Shown here piece after piece: positions 39,891-51,063 of a stretch of 64,000 nt of DNA. The notes under the pieces are model-generated. The model searched no databases and was not told the origin of the DNA. It saw only the letters and a list, made by a program, of their open reading frames with translations. The stretch is from Sphingomonas sp. HMP6 (lineage in GTDB: Bacteria > Pseudomonadota > Alphaproteobacteria > Sphingomonadales > Sphingomonadaceae), in the NCBI RefSeq assembly GCF_013374095.1, contig NZ_AP022672.1:1859501-1923500 (forward strand), read 5' to 3'. A program made the position numbers and the translations under genes. How positions within the stretch are numbered: position 1 is the stretch's first letter; each line of letters begins with the position of its first letter.

Positions 39891-40700
39891 GTGTCCTCCG
39901 CCGCCCGTCCCCATGCCGCAATCGTCGCCGAATTGCGCGAAAGCCTGAAGAAGGTCGCGGGCGACGGCTTGCGTCGGCGCCCGGTGCTGCCGTTCGGGAT
40001 CGCTACGATCGACGAGCGCTTGGCGACGGGCGGTCTGCGGCTCGATTCGCTCCACGAAATCGCCGCCGCCAGCCCCAGCCCGTCGGATGATGCCGCCGCA
40101 ACGCTGTTCATGGCCGGGATCGCGGCGCGCGCCTGGGGGCCGGTGCTGTGGGTGGTGCGACGGCGCGATCTGTTCGCGCCCGGCCTCTATCAAGCGGGGC
40201 TCGCACCCGAACGGCTGATCTATGCCGAGGCCGCCGACGATGCCGAACTGCTCGCCCTGATGGAGGAAGGGCTGCGTCACCGTGGCCTTGGCGCGGTGGT
40301 CGGCGAAGTGAAGCGCGCCGCCATGCCCAATACGCGCCGCCTGCAACTGGCGGCGGAGGGCGGCAAAACGATCGCCTTGCTGTTGAAACGCCATGCGCGG
40401 GCGGCTTCTGACCAGACCGGAAAAGGGGGGCGCGGTGGCAATCCGCTCGCCGTCCCGTCCGCCGCCGTGACGCGCTGGCGGATCGCGTCCGCCCCCTCGG
40501 CAGCACTGCCGGTCGGAGCGGCGGGAGTCGGACGCGCGATGTGGGGGGTGGAGCTGGTCCGCCAACGCGGCGGCGAATCCGCCGAATGGACGATGGAGGC
40601 ATGCGATGAAACGGGTCGCCTCGCTCTACCTGCCCGATTGGCCGATCGAACGGATCGTTCGGCTGACGGCGCAGGCCGAGCGTATCGCCGCGCCGCCTGA
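39891..40700 (+). CDS. imuA: ImuA, SOS mutagenesis accessory protein
   Basis: A 269-residue RecA-like/SulA-related protein of the damage-inducible translesion cassette. It shows LPFGIATIDERLATGGLRLDSLHEIAA near 33-59, the RecA-like entry, then VLWVVRRRDLFAPGLYQAGL and PNTRRLQLAAEGGKTIALLL. It starts with GTG 26 nt after a LexA box and overlaps imuB by 95 nt. ImuA is thought to link ImuB and DnaE2 to RecA or the clamp. The C-terminal part after about residue 235 lies in the overlap and reads as low-complexity. Confidence 0.9.
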   Translation: MSSAARPHAAIVAELRESLKKVAGDGLRRRPVLPFGIATIDERLATGGLRLDSLHEIAAASPSPSDDAAATLFMAGIAARAWGPVLWVVRRRDLFAPGLYQAGLAPERLIYAEAADDAELLALMEEGLRHRGLGAVVGEVKRAAMPNTRRLQLAAEGGKTIALLLKRHARAASDQTGKGGRGGNPLAVPSAAVTRWRIASAPSAALPVGAAGVGRAMWGVELVRQRGGESAEWTMEACDETGRLALPARLADRTDRSADGAGRAYRRAA

Positions 40701-42492
40701 GGCCGTGCTTTCAGTGGGGCCGTCCGACCCTGCCCGACCCGCCGCCCCCCATGTCGGCGGCTGGCGTCCCGGTGCGCGCTGGGCACGGAGCGAGAGCGCG
40801 CATCCGTTCAAGCCGATGTCCCCGGACGAGGGCGCGACACCGGTCAGGGATGCGCGGGCGGGTGGGCAGAACCATGCCCCACAAATACACCGTCACCCCG
40901 GCCTTGTGCCGGGGTCCACCGCGCAGCACGCTCTGCCTTCCGCGTTGAGGAGTGGACCCCGGCACAGGGCCGGGGTGACGAAAAATAGCATTGGTAGAGA
41001 AGCCCCTCTCCCCCTCGTCACCACCCAACAACAAGGCAACAAACTCGTCATCGCCGCCGCCTCCCCCGCGGCGCGCGCGCTCGGGATCAACCCTGGCATG
41101 GCGGCGACGCAAGCGCGCGCGCTGGTGCCCGAGCTCGACCTCCGTCCCGCCGATCCGCAGCGCGACCGCGCCGCCTTACGCGATCTCGCGCTGCGGGCGG
41201 CGCGGCGCTGGTGCCCGATCGTCGCCCTATCCGGCGAAGACGGCCTGTTCCTCGACATCTCCGGCACCGCGCATCTGTTCGGCGGGGAGGCGCGGATGGC
41301 GCGCGGCATCGTGCGCCTGCTCGCGCGCGCCGGTTTCACCGCACGCCTTGCCGTTGCCGATACGCCGGGTGCCGCCTGGGCACTCGCGCGCTACGCCCCG
41401 CAAATCTGCGAACCCGCCGCGCATTTCGACGCGATCGCCCCGCTCCCCACCGCAGCACTCCGACTCGAGGAACGCGCGATCGACTTGCTCAAGCGCCTCG
41501 GCGTCGACACCGTCGGGCAGCTTGCCGCCCTCCCCCGCGCCCCGCTCGCCCGGCGCTTCGGCGGCGCGCTGATCGCCCGGCTCGACCAAGCCACAGGACG
41601 CCTCCCCGAACCGCTCGACCCCATCATCCCGCCCGAAGCGATCGTCGTGGCACAGCGCTTCGCCGAACCGATCGCCACCGCCGACGCGATCGAGCATTGG
41701 CTGCGCGATCTGATGCCCCGCCTCGTCACCGCACTCGCGCAAGCAGGACAAGGCGCGCGCGCGATCGAATTGGTCGCCGACCGGATCGACGGGGTGCCCC
41801 AACGCCTGCGCATCGGCCTCGCCCGCCCGACCCGCGATGCCACGCATTTGCTGCGCCTGACGCTGCGGCGGATCGAGGAGATAGCTCCGGGCTACGGGAT
41901 CGACGCGCTCACGCTCCACGTCCGCCGCGCCGATCCACTCGGCGCGCAAGCCTTCACCGAAACGCTGGAAGATCGCGCGCCCGATCTCGCGCCGCTGATC
42001 GACACGCTCGCCAATCGCATCGGGCCAGACCATCTGTGGCGCACCACCCCGCACGAAAGCGACGTGCCCGAACGCTCGGTCCTTGCCGTCGCGCCGCTCG
42101 ATCCCCCCGCCCGCGCGATTACCAAACTGAAGGCTGACGATGTGCGCCAGCTCGACCGTTCGCCCGACGTGCATCCCTGGCACCCGCGCTGGCCGCGCCC
42201 GGTGCGGCTGCTGCGGCGGCCCGAGCTGCTCGACAATGTGCTCGCCGAATTGCCCGATCAGCCCCCGCGCCGCTTCACCTGGCGCGGCACGACGCACCGC
42301 GTGGTGCGCGCCGACGGCCCCGAGCGGATCACCGGCGAATGGTGGAAGCGCGCGACCGAGCGCCACAGCGTGCGCGATTATTTCCGGGTCGAGGACGACG
42401 TCGGCGAACGCTTCTGGCTGTTCCGCCGCGGCGACGGCGAACGCAGCGAAAGCGGCGACCTCGCCTGGTTCATGCACGGATCGTTCGGATGA
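40606..42492 (+). CDS. imuB: ImuB, Y-family polymerase-like mutasome protein
   Basis: The scaffold of the ImuA-ImuB-DnaE2 mutasome, 628 residues. Recognisable: start VASLYLPDWPIERIVR, PLVTTQQQGNKLVIAAASPAARALGINPGMAATQARALVPEL (136-177 region), WCPIVALSGEDGLFLDISG, LKRLGVDTVGQLAALP and a C-terminal RITGEWWKRATERHSVRDYF. Between about residues 36 and 134 there is roughly 90 residues more than the family normally has; residues 96-124 are the translation of a type A palindrome (GLVPGST ... SGPRHRAGVT). The frame stays open, so the protein may still work. Confidence 0.92.
   Translation: MKRVASLYLPDWPIERIVRLTAQAERIAAPPEAVLSVGPSDPARPAAPHVGGWRPGARWARSESAHPFKPMSPDEGATPVRDARAGGQNHAPQIHRHPGLVPGSTAQHALPSALRSGPRHRAGVTKNSIGREAPLPLVTTQQQGNKLVIAAASPAARALGINPGMAATQARALVPELDLRPADPQRDRAALRDLALRAARRWCPIVALSGEDGLFLDISGTAHLFGGEARMARGIVRLLARAGFTARLAVADTPGAAWALARYAPQICEPAAHFDAIAPLPTAALRLEERAIDLLKRLGVDTVGQLAALPRAPLARRFGGALIARLDQATGRLPEPLDPIIPPEAIVVAQRFAEPIATADAIEHWLRDLMPRLVTALAQAGQGARAIELVADRIDGVPQRLRIGLARPTRDATHLLRLTLRRIEEIAPGYGIDALTLHVRRADPLGAQAFTETLEDRAPDLAPLIDTLANRIGPDHLWRTTPHESDVPERSVLAVAPLDPPARAITKLKADDVRQLDRSPDVHPWHPRWPRPVRLLRRPELLDNVLAELPDQPPRRFTWRGTTHRVVRADGPERITGEWWKRATERHSVRDYFRVEDDVGERFWLFRRGDGERSESGDLAWFMHGSFG
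40892..40979. repeat. Palindromic repeat, type A, inside imuB
   Basis: Arms GTCACCCCGGCCTTGTGCC and GGCACAGGGCCGGGGTGAC (one mismatch) around a 50-nt spacer. The element is in frame in imuB and encodes residues 96-124. The other three type A copies are intergenic. Confidence 0.95.
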
Positions 42493-43246: not shown

Positions 43247-46200
43247 ATGAGCTACCACGAACTGCACGTCACCACGCATTTCTCCTTCCTGCGCGGGGCG
43301 TCGTCGCCGGAGGACCTCATCAAGGCCGCGGTGATCTACGGAATGCCTGCGCTCGGCATTACCGACCGCAATTCGGTCGGCGGCGTGGTCCGTGCGCTCT
43401 ACGCGTGCGAGCAACTGGCGAAAATCGGCTGCCACATCCGCCCGGTCGTCGGCTGTCGGCTCGATCTGGTCGATGGCACCTCGCTGCTCGTCTGGCCCGA
43501 GGACCGCGCCGCCTGGAGCCGCCTCACGCGGCTGCTCACGCTCGGCAAGGGCCGCGCCGATCCGCAAAAGGGCGAGAAAGGGCAATGTTTCCTGCATTGG
43601 GAGGATGTGGCGGAACATGCCGCGGGCCTCGTCGCGGCGCTGGTGCCCGGCCTGTCCGATCCCGGCGATCCGCTCGCCTTGCGCTGGATGGCGGATGTCT
43701 TCGCAAACCGCGGGCACGTCTGCCTGACGCAGCACCGCCGCCCCGGCGATGCGCAGCGTTTGCACGATCTGGCCGCCACCGCGCGGCGCTTCGGCCTCAC
43801 CCCGCTCGCGACCGGCGACGTGCTCTACGACACGCCCGATCGGCGGATGCTGCAGGATATCATCACCGCGATCCGCCACGGCTGCACGATCGACGAACTC
43901 GGTTTTCGCCGTGAACGCAGCGCCGACCGGCATGTAAAGGCCCCGGCCGAAATGGCACGCCGCTTCCGGCATTTCCCGGAAGCCCTCGCCGCCAGCGCCG
44001 CGATCGTCGAGCGTTGCACCTTCTCGCTGCGCGACGTGACGCAGCATTATCGCTACCCCGACGAAATCGTCATCAGCGGCAAGAACCCGCAGGACGCGCT
44101 GGCGACGATGGCGCGCAGCGCGCTCGCCGAACGCTTCGACGGCAACCCGCCGCCCGCTTATACCGATCTGCTGGAGCATGAACTCCAACTCGTCGCGACG
44201 ATGGGCTATGCGCCCTATTTCCTCACCGTCCATTCGATCGTGCAATATGCACGCAGCCAGGAAATCCTGTGCCAGGGGCGCGGCTCGGCGGCCAATTCGG
44301 TGATCTGCTTCGTGCTCGGCATCACCTCGATCGATCCGGTCAAGCACACCTTGCTGTTCGAACGCTTCATCTCGACCGAGCGGCAGGAACCGCCCGATAT
44401 CGACGTCGATTTCGAACATGAACGGCGCGAGGAAGTGATCCAGTGGATCTACGAAACCTATGGCGAACGCCACGCCGCGCTGACCGCGGTGGTCAGCCGT
44501 TTCCGCTCGCGCGGCGCGATCCGCGAAGTCGGCAAGGCGCTGGGTTTGCCCGAGGACATGACTGCCGCTTTAGCCTCGCAAGTGTGGGGCTGGTCGAGCG
44601 AGGGCGTGCCCGAGGAACATGTCGCAGCACTCAATCTCGATCCGACCGAACCGCGCCTCGCGCTCGCGCTCGATCTGGCGACGCAGTTGATCGGCACGCC
44701 GCGCCATCTGTCGCAACATCCCGGCGGCTTCGTCCTCTCGCACGGTCGGCTCGACGAACTGGTGCCGATCGAACCCGCCGCGATGATCGATCGCCGCGTG
44801 GTCGAATGGGAGAAAGCCGATATTGAGGAGCTTGGCCTGATGAAGGTCGATATCCTCGGCCTCGGGATGCTCGGCTGCATACGTCGCGCCCTCGATTTGC
44901 TGCGCGCACACAAGAGCGTCGACCTCCGCCTCGACAGCCCGACCTTGCAGGACAATGACGCCAAGACCTTCGCGATGATTTGCAAGGCCGACACGCTCGG
45001 CACCTTCCAGGTCGAAAGCCGCGCGCAAATGTCGATGCTGCCACGGATGCGCCCGGAAAATTTCTACGACCTCGCCATCCAGGTCGCGATCGTGCGGCCC
45101 GGCCCGATCCAGGGCGACATGGTCCACCCCTATCTCAAACGCCGCGAGCAGCAGCGCGCCAACCGGCTCGCCGGGCGGCCCGACACTATAGACTATCCCA
45201 GCCCCGCGCTCGAATCCGTGCTCAAGAAAACGCTCGGCGTGCCGCTGTTCCAGGAACAGGCGATGCAAGTCGCGATCGTCGGTGCGGGCTTCACCGCTGG
45301 CGAGGCCGACCGGCTGCGCCGCGCGATGGCGACGTTCAAGCAGACCGGCGGCGTCGGCGAATTTCGCGATAAATTGATCTCGGGCATGCTCGGCAACGGC
45401 ATCAGCCAAGATTTCGCCGAACGGCTGGTCAAGCAAATCGAGGGTTTCGGCAGCTACGGCTTCCCCGAAAGCCACGCCGCGAGCTTCGCCAAGATCGCCT
45501 ATGCTTCGTGCTGGCTGAAATGCCATCATCCTGACGTGTTCTGCGCAGCACTGCTCAACGCGCAGCCGATGGGCTTCTACGCGCCTGCGCAAATCGTCCG
45601 CGATGCGCGCGAACATGGAGTGCGGATTGAGCCGGTGTGCGTGAACCGCAGCGATTGGGATACGACCTTACTCCCTCTCCCCGCCGGGGAGAGGGCGGAC
45701 GAGCGCAGCGAAGTCGGGAGAGGGGCAGTCATCAACGGTAGCGTCCAGCACAGCCCCTCTCCCCGACCAGTTTCGGGTCGACCGTGCCCCGCACGGTCGA
45801 GGATCGTCCGGGGGACGATCCGACCCGAAACTCCCCGAAGGGGAGAGAGAGAAGAAAGACTCCCCCTCCGCCTCGGCCTCCGCATCGTCCTCGGCCTCTC
45901 CGGCGAAGAAGCGGGCCGCATCCTCATCGCCCGCGCCGCGCGCCCGTTCGCCTCGGTCGAGGATGTGTGGCGGCGCACCGGCGTCTCGCGCGGCACGCTC
46001 GAAAAGATCGCGCAGGCCGATGGCTTCCATGGCCTCGGGCTCGATCGTCGGCAGGCGCTATGGGCGATCAAGGCGCTCGGCGAGAAACCACTCCCGCTCT
46101 TCGCCGCAACCGAATCCGCCGCCGAGCCGCAGGTCACGCTCACCGCGCTCACCGCGGGCCGCGAAGTTGTCGAGGATTATCGCGCGACGCAATTGTCGCT

Positions 46201-46714
46201 GCGCGCGCATCCGGTCAGCTTCCTACGCGACACGCTCGATGCACGGCGCATCACGCGCTGCGGCGATTTGAAACGGATCAAGGACGGCACCCGCGTTGAA
46301 GTCGCCGGGCTGATCCTGGTGCGGCAACGCCCCGGCAGTGCGAAAGGCGTGGTGTTCGTCACGCTGGAGGACGAAACCGGCATCGCCAACGCGATCCTGT
46401 GGCCCGACCGGTTCGAAGCACAGCGCCGCACCGTGATGGGCGCGGCGATGCTCGGCATCACGGGGCGCGTGCAATGCGAAAGCGGCACGATCCACGTCAT
46501 CGCCGACCGCATTACCGATCTGACCGGCTTACTCCGCCAGATCGGCGACTTGGATTTGCCCAACATGACCATGCCCGGCGACGGCGCGACGCATGGCGGC
46601 ACGATCGACCCGCGCGATAGAAAGCCCGAGTGGAAACCCGACTCCCGCACCGACTATCATTACCGCGAGCGCGCTGAGCCCGTGATCCCGATCAAGAGCC
46701 ACGACTTCCACTGA
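43247..46714 (+). CDS. dnaE2: Error-prone DNA polymerase DnaE2 (ImuC)
   Basis: The polymerase of the SOS mutasome, 1155 residues. PHP domain from YHELHVTTHFSFLRGAS; catalytic palm with CQGRGSAANSVICFVLG and PPDIDVDFEHERREEV; helix-hairpin-helix GEEAGRILIARAARPFASV and a C-terminal OB fold (GLILVRQRPGSAKGVVFVTLEDETG). Residues about 809-868 (ERADERSEVGRGAV ... ETPRRGEREE) are an in-frame palindromic insertion between CVNRSDWDTT and LPLRLGLRIVLGL, which are adjacent in normal DnaE2. No LexA box was seen in the 57-nt gap before the start; the cassette's box lies upstream of imuA. Confidence 0.95.
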   Translation: MSYHELHVTTHFSFLRGASSPEDLIKAAVIYGMPALGITDRNSVGGVVRALYACEQLAKIGCHIRPVVGCRLDLVDGTSLLVWPEDRAAWSRLTRLLTLGKGRADPQKGEKGQCFLHWEDVAEHAAGLVAALVPGLSDPGDPLALRWMADVFANRGHVCLTQHRRPGDAQRLHDLAATARRFGLTPLATGDVLYDTPDRRMLQDIITAIRHGCTIDELGFRRERSADRHVKAPAEMARRFRHFPEALAASAAIVERCTFSLRDVTQHYRYPDEIVISGKNPQDALATMARSALAERFDGNPPPAYTDLLEHELQLVATMGYAPYFLTVHSIVQYARSQEILCQGRGSAANSVICFVLGITSIDPVKHTLLFERFISTERQEPPDIDVDFEHERREEVIQWIYETYGERHAALTAVVSRFRSRGAIREVGKALGLPEDMTAALASQVWGWSSEGVPEEHVAALNLDPTEPRLALALDLATQLIGTPRHLSQHPGGFVLSHGRLDELVPIEPAAMIDRRVVEWEKADIEELGLMKVDILGLGMLGCIRRALDLLRAHKSVDLRLDSPTLQDNDAKTFAMICKADTLGTFQVESRAQMSMLPRMRPENFYDLAIQVAIVRPGPIQGDMVHPYLKRREQQRANRLAGRPDTIDYPSPALESVLKKTLGVPLFQEQAMQVAIVGAGFTAGEADRLRRAMATFKQTGGVGEFRDKLISGMLGNGISQDFAERLVKQIEGFGSYGFPESHAASFAKIAYASCWLKCHHPDVFCAALLNAQPMGFYAPAQIVRDAREHGVRIEPVCVNRSDWDTTLLPLPAGERADERSEVGRGAVINGSVQHSPSPRPVSGRPCPARSRIVRGTIRPETPRRGEREERLPLRLGLRIVLGLSGEEAGRILIARAARPFASVEDVWRRTGVSRGTLEKIAQADGFHGLGLDRRQALWAIKALGEKPLPLFAATESAAEPQVTLTALTAGREVVEDYRATQLSLRAHPVSFLRDTLDARRITRCGDLKRIKDGTRVEVAGLILVRQRPGSAKGVVFVTLEDETGIANAILWPDRFEAQRRTVMGAAMLGITGRVQCESGTIHVIADRITDLTGLLRQIGDLDLPNMTMPGDGATHGGTIDPRDRKPEWKPDSRTDYHYRERAEPVIPIKSHDFH
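45671..45850. repeat. Nested palindromic repeats inside dnaE2
   Basis: The outer element begins with CTCTCCCCGCCGGGGAGAG (45675-45693) and ends CTCCCCGAAGGGGAGAG, with a further CCCCTCTCCCC arm at 45754. Between the last two lies a second element, 45769-45832: arms AGTTTCGGGTCG and CGACCCGAAACT enclosing two hairpins, GACCGTGC-CCC-GCACGGTC (45780-45798) and GGATCGTCC-GGG-GGACGATCC (45801-45821). Everything is open in the dnaE2 frame. Confidence 0.9.
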
Positions 46715-49426: not shown

Positions 49427-51063
49427 CCCGGATTATTCATCGGGAGCGATAATCGGTGGTGGCGATCGTGGTCTAAGTCTTTGGTTTGGAGTAGAGAAAG
49501 GGTGCTTACGCCATCCCTCTGCTCCAGACAGAAAGTGCCACGACCGCCATGGCCGACGATAGTGGGTTCTCCTTCACCTTCCCAGCCATTCGTGGTCGAA
49601 AAATCACCGCCGCGTTCGACGGCGGTCGGCTGACGTCGGACGGCGGCGTGCTACTGCTCGCACAGGCCGAGCGGCGGTTGGGGATCGCGGATCGGCTCGC
49701 CGCCTGCATCGCTGATCCGCGCGATCAGGGTCGGGTGATCCACCGGGTCGCCGACATCTTGCGCGCCCGCATGCTCGCGATCTCGTGTGGGTATGAAGAC
49801 GCCAATGATCTCGACGCCCTGCGGCATGATCCAGGGTTCAAGCTGGCGCTCGGCAAACTGCCGGGTGATCCGTTCGGGCTGGCCAGCCAGCCGACGATGA
49901 GCCGGTGGGAAAACGCGCCGACTACGCGCGAGTTGATCCGTCTGACCGGTACGCTGGTCGACCTTTATTGCGCGAGCTACCCCGTGCCACCTGCGGCGGT
50001 GACGCTCGACATCGATGATACCGTCGACGTCGTACACGGCGCGCAGCAGCTCTCTTTCTGGAACGGCCACTACGGCGAGCGCTGCTTCCTGCCGATCCAT
50101 GTCTACGACACCGCTACCGGGCGGCCGGTTGCGATGCTGCTGCGCACCGGCAAAACGCCGTCGGGCAAGGAAGTCGCCGGCCATGTTCGCCGGCTCGTGC
50201 GACGTATCCGTCGCCACTGGCCCGATACCCGGATCACGCTGCGCGGCGATGGTCATTACGGTCGGCCAGAGCCGATGGCCTGGTGCGAGGCGAACGGAAT
50301 CGACTACATCTTCGGGCTGCCCGGCAACCGCACGCTCCACGCCGATCCCGTCATCGTTCGGGAAGGCGATGCCTGCGCGACCGACCGGGCATTGCAGGGA
50401 CTGGTCGAACTAAGGCGTTACGCAGAGACGCGCTACGCTGCGAAAACCTGGGGGAATACCGAACGTCGCGTCGTTGCTCGCATCGAGGCGAGCAGCCTCG
50501 GCCTCGACATCCGCCTCGTTGTCACCTCGCTTGCCGAGGGCAGCGCTGAACGGATCTATGACACGCTTTACTGCGCCCGCGGCCAGGCGGAAAACTTGAT
50601 CAAGCTGCATAAAACGCAGCTGAAGAGCGACCGAACCTCCTGCTGCTCGGCCAACGCCAATCAGATGCGGCTCATCCTTCACACCGCCGCCTACTGGCTG
50701 ATGTGGGCCGTGCGGCACGCTATGCCCGCAACCGCCACGCTCCGCACCGCCGAGTTCGCGACCATCCGCCTGCGGCTGCTCAAGGTCGCCGCGCGCGTCG
50801 TCGAAACCACCAGCCGCATCCGCATCGCCTTCGCAAGCGCCTGTCCCGATGCCGCGCTGTTCCGATCCATCGCGCTCAACTTGCGCACCACGGGACCATG
50901 ATCGATGCGGCAGTGGCCGCCAAACGAACCCCGCCCATCAACTCCGCCCCAAACTGTGAACCCGCGATGAGACAGGCGCTTGGGACCCATGCGCCCTGCC
51001 TGCGGCTACACGACGCCTGCGCTGACCCATCGGCTGAGAAACGCTGCCGGTGAATAGATCAGG
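49427..51063 (+). mobile_element. IS1380-family insertion sequence, copy 1
   Basis: A 1637-bp element bounded by comparing this copy with the one at 61437-63073: sequence identity stops just outside. Left end CCCGGATTATTCATCGGG and right end, read inward, CCTGATCTATTCACCGGC are imperfect inverted repeats. CTAG lies directly outside both ends (49423-49426, 51064-51067), consistent with a 4-bp target duplication; CTAG could instead be part of the ends. It carries one transposase gene. Confidence 0.9.
49549..50901 (+). CDS. IS1380-family transposase, copy 1
   Basis: A 450-residue DDE transposase. TSDGGVLLLAQAERRLG, DQGRVIHRVADILRARMLAI and SCGYEDANDLDALRHDP are IS1380 signatures; catalytic aspartates lie in LDIDDTVDVVHG and LRGDGHYGRPEPM, with the late region GQAENLIKLHKTQLKSDRTS containing the glutamate. 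The protein is intact and identical to copy 2, so the element is probably still active. Confidence 0.95.
   Translation: MADDSGFSFTFPAIRGRKITAAFDGGRLTSDGGVLLLAQAERRLGIADRLAACIADPRDQGRVIHRVADILRARMLAISCGYEDANDLDALRHDPGFKLALGKLPGDPFGLASQPTMSRWENAPTTRELIRLTGTLVDLYCASYPVPPAAVTLDIDDTVDVVHGAQQLSFWNGHYGERCFLPIHVYDTATGRPVAMLLRTGKTPSGKEVAGHVRRLVRRIRRHWPDTRITLRGDGHYGRPEPMAWCEANGIDYIFGLPGNRTLHADPVIVREGDACATDRALQGLVELRRYAETRYAAKTWGNTERRVVARIEASSLGLDIRLVVTSLAEGSAERIYDTLYCARGQAENLIKLHKTQLKSDRTSCCSANANQMRLILHTAAYWLMWAVRHAMPATATLRTAEFATIRLRLLKVAARVVETTSRIRIAFASACPDAALFRSIALNLRTTGP

Follow-up and report, generated by a model that had tools for sequence, protein, structure and literature searches.

How can a DNA polymerase gene hold one palindrome nested within another and still be read in frame from end to end? 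The dnaE2 gene described here raises this question. Palindromic repeats are common in bacteria and, to our knowledge, how most of them move is unknown. All coordinates refer to the window, the whole stretch of 64,000 nucleotides of Sphingomonas sp. HMP6 that was analysed, unless genome positions are given. The inner 64-nt element is called "Y-element", a name coined in this analysis.

The nested repeat and its host gene dnaE2

The gene lies in a genome made up of a single contig of 3.64 Mb. Its product scored 1292 bits against NCBIfam NF004225 (error-prone DNA polymerase, cut-off 939) and contains the Pfam domains PHP, DNA_pol3_alpha, finger, HHH_6 and OB. The original prediction had described a palindrome within a palindrome in this gene, with the right half of the outer element interrupted by a second element of 64 nt. 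Sequence inspection, inverted repeats and folds located the arms and hairpins at the predicted positions and placed the inner element at 45769-45832, within the right terminal hairpin of the outer repeat. The features are:

43247..46714, + strand: dnaE2, error-prone DNA polymerase gene, ORF of 1155 aa (NCBIfam NF004225; Pfam domains)
45671..45847, no strand: outer palindromic repeat, CTCTCCCC type, with the inner element within (inverted repeats, fold, genomic copies; ends by eye)
45671..45695, no strand: left terminal hairpin of the outer repeat, CCCTCTCCCC-GCC-GGGGAGAGGG (sequence)
45716..45763, no strand: inner arms of the outer repeat, GGGAGAGGGGCAGT / ACAGCCCCTCTCCC (inverted repeats)
45769..45832, + strand: inner 64-nt Y-element, three-way junction (DNA search, fold, covariance model, 60-copy alignment)
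45769..45778, + strand: Y-element outer stem, 5' half, pairing with 45823-45832 (60-copy pairing, RNAalifold)
45779..45799, + strand: Y-element first hairpin, 9 bp, CCC loop at 45788-45790 (60-copy pairing, RNAalifold)
45800..45800, + strand: Y-element unpaired junction A (A in 56 of 60 copies)
45801..45821, + strand: Y-element second hairpin, 9 bp, GGG loop at 45810-45812 (60-copy pairing, RNAalifold)
45822..45822, + strand: Y-element unpaired junction G (G in 59 of 60 copies)
45833..45847, no strand: remainder of the right terminal hairpin of the outer repeat, CCCC-GAA-GGGG-AGAG (sequence, orthologue)

The AGAG of the right terminal hairpin has no CTCT partner, and the 64-mer occupies the CTCT position. 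This exchange of 4 for 64 nt adds a net 60 nt or 20 codons, so the dnaE2 frame survived the inner step, as had been claimed. Folding of the inner 64 nt gave a three-way junction of -46.1 kcal/mol (z -6.65), the whole insert reached a z-score of -7.65, and none of 200 shuffles equalled either value. Copies similar to the outer repeat occur elsewhere in this genome (L002, L003, L004, L006). A target-site duplication of TCCCCGA flanking the inner element was considered and dropped; both occurrences are ordinary CTCTCCCC motifs of the outer repeat.

We compared dnaE2 at 30 loci, one from each of the 30 best genomes among 61 searched. In this genome the linker from GFY to RLGLR measures 99 aa, which is 56 residues more than the 43 aa of the shortest orthologues; about 60 had been predicted. 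Among these best 30, linkers of 43-47 aa were found at 18 loci, and all but six fall between 43 and 60 residues; the six long ones are our genome (G000) with 99, L027 with 75, L028 with 82, L029 with 70, L030 with 94 and L041 with 70 residues. The inner element is present in one of the 30, namely this genome. With 18 short linkers and a single filled locus, the alternative of an ancestral protein domain failed. Measured against 100 letter shuffles of each linker, the linker DNA showed fold z-scores of -6.9 here, -3.6 in L027, -11.6 in L028, -6.9 in L030 and -2.1 in L041, and of -3.9, -7.9 and -9.6 for the long linkers in the named records tested (L106, L107 and L110). The linker of L029 is long, yet it lacks a palindrome (z +0.3). 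Linkers of 43-60 aa gave -0.6 (L031), 1.6 (L035), -2.1 (L039), 0.4 (L040) and 1.1 (L033). The dnaE2 linker looks like a landing site for palindromes, because several relatives have palindromes of other types in it.

One orthologue bears directly on the order of events. The linker of L028 (genome G021) contains an uninterrupted outer repeat of the CTCTCCCC type at the matching position without the inner element, so the order in which the outer repeat came first and the Y-element second is supported by this comparison. The predicted succession of two insertions at one site thus agrees with L028 and with the 18 linkers of 43-47 aa.

The loop was also mapped on a structural model, as the original prediction had suggested. 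An AlphaFold2 model of DnaE2 built from 28 sequences (mean pLDDT 74.8, pTM 0.66) gave pLDDT values under 50 for residues 815-867, between two short strands within HHH_6 (791-937); residues 841-862 are encoded by the 64-mer. The insert-bearing loop is thus predicted to be disordered and to lie outside the polymerase core, and such a flexible loop would be the simplest reason why DnaE2 tolerates the insert. The insert is probably tolerated by the protein rather than useful to it.

Three observations concern the surroundings. In L041 (G007) the linker contains a palindrome of the CCCGTTCGCCCTGAGCTTGTCGAAGGGCGAACGG type, and two of the Y-elements of this genome sit in hosts of that type. A transposase ORF (window 49549-50901; Pfam DDE_Tnp_1_4, 539 bits) lies downstream of dnaE2 at a distance of about 2.8 kb. 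Upstream, an ORF like imuB (window 40606-42492; Pfam IMS) has the stretch HPGLVPGS...GPRHRAGVT in its N-terminal part, which looks like an in-frame CGTC-type palindromic insert; if so, two genes of one SOS operon contain palindromes.

A family of 64-nt elements defined by shape

A search for free-standing copies of the inner element had been proposed as a check, and independent copies do exist. A DNA search found a second copy in this genome between murC and murB, 83% identical and with paired changes. This copy (L005 1501-1564) sits within a longer palindromic repeat and lengthens an open frame upstream of murB. The loop-and-spacing pattern matched 14 times in the genome, and eight of these matches fall at six real places: 85809, 132491, 387573, 645742, 1634617 and 1905269 (dnaE2). 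A seventh place, 142154, is a weak match. Judged by eye, all six strong places sit in other palindromic repeats.

A first covariance model from five copies, with 43 candidates per genome scored, matched at least 85 of the 121 genus genomes. The second, built on 60 copies (13 candidates per genome scored), had matches in at least 74 of 397 family genomes and 22 of 96 genera. In a Pseudomonadota survey, again with 13 candidates per genome, at least 8 of 398 genomes had matches; seven of these, among them the present genome, belong to the genus and the eighth to a different genus of the family. Few candidates were scored per genome, so each of these figures is a minimum and an absence outside the family carries little weight; the match counts of the large searches often take both strands of one place and are not copy numbers. 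Over nine genomes, 62 of 86 distinct places match over exactly 64 nt; the remaining 24 have matches of 41-69 nt, of which two are truncated at contig ends.

A rigid scan of 1.36 Mb returned 130 distinct matches with at least 22 of 28 Watson-Crick pairs; its null, at a threshold of 18, gave 100 matches on one strand of block-shuffled DNA. We retained 119 copies with at least 24 of 28 pairs, dropped one more that was out of register, and chose 60 representatives that differ mutually by more than six letters, from loci picked by high model score. Their alignment is gap-free. RNAalifold, with no structure supplied, returned the common form: a 10-bp stem, a 9-bp hairpin with a CCC loop, an unpaired A, a 9-bp hairpin with a GGG loop and an unpaired G. 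The perfect hairpins of the original prediction stood; its outer stem of 12 bp came to 10 bp in the 60 diverse copies. A pairing of 11-54 in model R1 was rejected, as the 60 copies show 11-31 inside the first hairpin, and model R2 was corrected.

Of the 1680 cells (60 copies, 28 pairs), 98.2% are paired, a perfection that is inflated by the selection for at least 24 Watson-Crick pairs. The 10-bp outer stem is paired in 96.3% of its cells, which means that terminal inverted repeats are present. Two-sided changes occur in 25 of the 28 pairs and amount to 517 cells; shuffles gave 142 and slid partners 41-69. One measure of covariation came out weak and close to its control, with 67 further pair types vs 61.0 in shuffles, 13 of 500 of which were as high. 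What the original prediction had missed is that the defining trait of the inner family is its structure more than its sequence. The near-invariant loops CCC and GGG (alignment columns 20-22 and 42-44) are mutually complementary, so that a loop-loop contact within or between copies would be possible.

Strong covariation together with conserved junction and loop letters is also what one would see if the Y-element were a structured RNA, cis-acting or small, whose covariation reflects selection on the transcript. Selection on RNA should favour G-U, but the 60 copies hold 11 G-T cells and 18 A-C cells (the misassigned pair 11-54 left out), a comparison less affected by the selection for pairing, in which the scan treats both kinds alike and the model that supplied the loci need not. 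Because G-U is not above A-C, the stems are maintained as DNA rather than RNA. Copies also lie inside coding regions in several reading frames and on either strand, and 6 loci (19,239 bases) had no match to an Rfam family at its gathering cut-off. We consider the structured-RNA explanation improbable.

The way in which the stems change was followed by linking the 119 distinct sequences to their nearest relatives at 1-4 differences. These links contain 44 compensatory pair changes and 46 single changes, where chance would give 1.9 coupled pairs (maximum 6 in 200 trials). In 18 of 21 sequence pairs that differ at two letters, the two letters are paired. Transitions and transversions stand at 32:12 among coupled and 31:13 among single changes. 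This fits one mutation being copied to the opposite arm. Loss of broken copies could contribute, as selection against them could also yield coupled changes. With wobble pairs so scarce amid 517 compensatory cells, the family also offers natural data on template-switch repair of palindromes.

Copies lie in many other genes. Open frames traverse copies in the loci of CarA, GlyS (two genomes), GcvPB, MetH, LigD and GlcE, and RNase R copies in two genomes at two sites; several of these ORFs are partial and score below the curated cut-off. The copies have a mean of 3.9 stop-free frames out of six and letter shuffles 3.5, an excess too small to build on. This presence in many other genes and genomes was not part of the original prediction, nor was the exchange described next.

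Exchange of four nucleotides for 64

The cleanest case is orthologous. The gcvPB regions of G084 and G020 share 93.9% identity outside gaps, and where one has CTCT the other has the 64-mer. In a wider search for empty hosts, which used exact 8-nt flanks and gaps of 0-14 nt within the sequence collected here, an empty host was found for 49 of 118 copies; in 40 cases the gap was 4, mostly CTCC or GGAG, and the other nine show other gaps only. The distinct empties number 131, with a gap of 4 in 97 and of 5 in 18. Three shuffles with swapped flanks yielded 88 empties, which also peak at gap 4 (38) because the hosts are of few types. A target-site duplication was not seen: four nucleotides are lost in the gcvPB orthologous pair and in 40 of the 49 copies with an empty host. 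Together, the comparisons of filled and empty states show an exchange of a 4-nt target, mostly CTCC/CTCT or GGAG/AGAG in a palindromic arm, for 64 nt.

Two further insertions lie in plain coding sequence without a host repeat, each with a net gain of 60 nt. A second gcvPB copy is common to G084 and G020 and absent from 12 other aligned loci, and a copy in the RNase R gene of G119 is absent from 10 other aligned loci (41 genomes searched per gene). The letters lost at these two sites are guesses based on diverged relatives (AGAC or AGAG; GGAG, CGAG and others). The plain-coding gcvPB element (L288, L289) is identical in 64 of 64 letters between G084 and G020, in a region of 93.9% identity; the chance of this is about 1.8% for independent sites.

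The preference for hairpins emerged when CTCC, CTCT, GGAG or AGAG was set between the flanks of each copy and a hairpin of at least 7 bp that uses all four letters was sought. Such a hairpin formed at 70 of 115 sites. Of 600 random positions given identical treatment 9 formed one, and of 581 random RGAG/CTCY sites 23 did. The 45 sites that failed include the GTCACCCC and CTGAGCTTGTCGAAG repeats (by eye) and the two plain gene sites. An earlier nesting test, in which the flanks were joined without the missing arm, was negative, with 6 of 118 against 2, 4 and 5 with swapped flanks. At the 70 hairpin sites the end letters AG, AT, CG and GG all occur, so no simple rule links element ends to target. 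The gain of 20 codons explains how the repeat entered dnaE2, carA, glyS, gcvPB and the RNase R gene without a frameshift.

Mobility, a possible mover and known systems

G111 has identical 64-mers at five places, G092 at six and G132 at four, and host arms, loops and spacers differ around them. One 64-mer is letter-for-letter common to G025, G092, G132 and G135 and to the G029/G089 copies (L099, L098, L278); some of the cross-species identical copies may be inherited, since L358 and L362 have common outer flanks. L060 and L219, at unrelated places in two genomes, have the same host flank CGGCCGGCGCGGCCAAAGCCGCGACCGACG and Y-elements of different stem sequence. This flank turned out to belong to a host repeat present at both. 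From presence and absence at orthologous places, Y-elements are apparently mobile.

The chief competitor of this reading is that the Y-element does not move separately and is a variant terminal hairpin travelling with the outer repeats. Most copies do lie within such repeats, and identical copies in one genome occupy one host type, but the hosts are of different types, the plain coding sequence of gcvPB and of the RNase R gene also received copies, one host flank is joined to two different Y-elements (L060, L219), and host arms, loops and spacers vary around identical 64-mers. We therefore regard a hitchhiking hairpin as unlikely, though less so than the other alternatives. Formation at each place by replication error, through hairpin-primed or template-switch synthesis and without common descent, would accord with the coupled changes in the closest copies, which point to template switching on stems. 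It leaves the common architecture and the constant 4-nt exchange unaccounted for, is already disfavoured by the identical 64-mers at unrelated loci and in several species, and strikes us as scarcely credible.

The element might instead be a MITE of a known insertion sequence of the Y1/RAYT or IS110 type in the same genomes, and several IS families target REPs according to PMC1525189. An IS110 domain is present in 64 of the 121 genus genomes, this one included; the Y1 (RAYT) domain was found in 12 of the 121 at E 1e-3 and not in this genome. Neither is associated with the Y-element: among the 85 positive genomes 46 contain IS110 and 9 contain Y1, among the 36 negative ones 18 and 3 (p 0.70 for IS110, 1.0 for Y1), and 34 of the 85 positive genomes have neither domain. 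With four nucleotides lost and no target duplication besides, an origin from these known families appears to us as improbable as the structured RNA.

We consider it likely, then, that the dnaE2 inner element is a copy of a mobile family of 64-nt DNA palindromes of the Sphingomonadaceae, which prefers hairpins and is inserted in trans by a putative enzyme. The outer repeat would have entered dnaE2 first, in the loop of the helix-hairpin-helix domain that is predicted to be disordered, and the Y-element would then have replaced CTCT in its right terminal hairpin. The element may move as folded DNA, either an extruded hairpin or a single strand, be recognised via its junction and its CCC and GGG loops, and be inserted in trans by a putative hairpin-acting enzyme; its stems would stay matched through arm-to-arm copying during replication. 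We offer only tentatively the more specific proposal that this is shape-recognised DNA, a fixed three-way junction exchanged frame-neutrally for a hairpin tetranucleotide and maintained by arm-to-arm copying and not by RNA selection; we regard it as possible. Filled and empty states are comparable base for base, the unit is 64 nt and the preferred target is a hairpin tetranucleotide, which brings both a search for the enzyme and an experiment on hairpin targeting within reach.

In the literature searched, where most subscription journals are absent, no three-way-junction repeat that exchanges 4 nt of its target turned up. The closest known systems are the GTAG/CGTC REPs, which Di Nocera et al. 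2013 (PMC3733652) describe as small palindromic repeats, many per genome and often inverted dimers. The same paper reports REPs in DnaE2 and other repair genes and dimers of some families within other palindromes, and it states that CGTC REPs have no dedicated transposase. Y-elements are alike in being small palindromic repeats with many copies, a DnaE2 location and nesting in palindromes. They differ from these 20-40 bp stem-loops in their 64 nt, three helices and paired ends, have no unpaired GTAG or CGTC tag, and replace four target nucleotides. With REPINs, the outer repeat shares the layout of two inverted hairpins, and the Y-element can itself be read as two inverted hairpin units; the difference to REPIN/RAYT systems is that the Y1 domain was found neither here nor in 109 of the 121 genus genomes (E 1e-3).

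Rickettsia palindromic elements, in-frame palindromic inserts in many protein genes according to PMC3733652, are likened to Y-elements on in-frame insertion alone and belong to another lineage. Like MITEs, Y-elements are short, have inverted ends, no gene of their own and many copies, but four target nucleotides are lost instead of a target duplication being made. REP-targeting insertion sequences such as IS621, ISPpu9 and ISRm22 also insert at fixed places in palindromic repeats (PMC1525189); they carry genes, whereas the Y-element is 64 nt without a gene. We place Y-elements among the small mobile palindromic repeats, a known kind, and their mechanism may turn out to be new.
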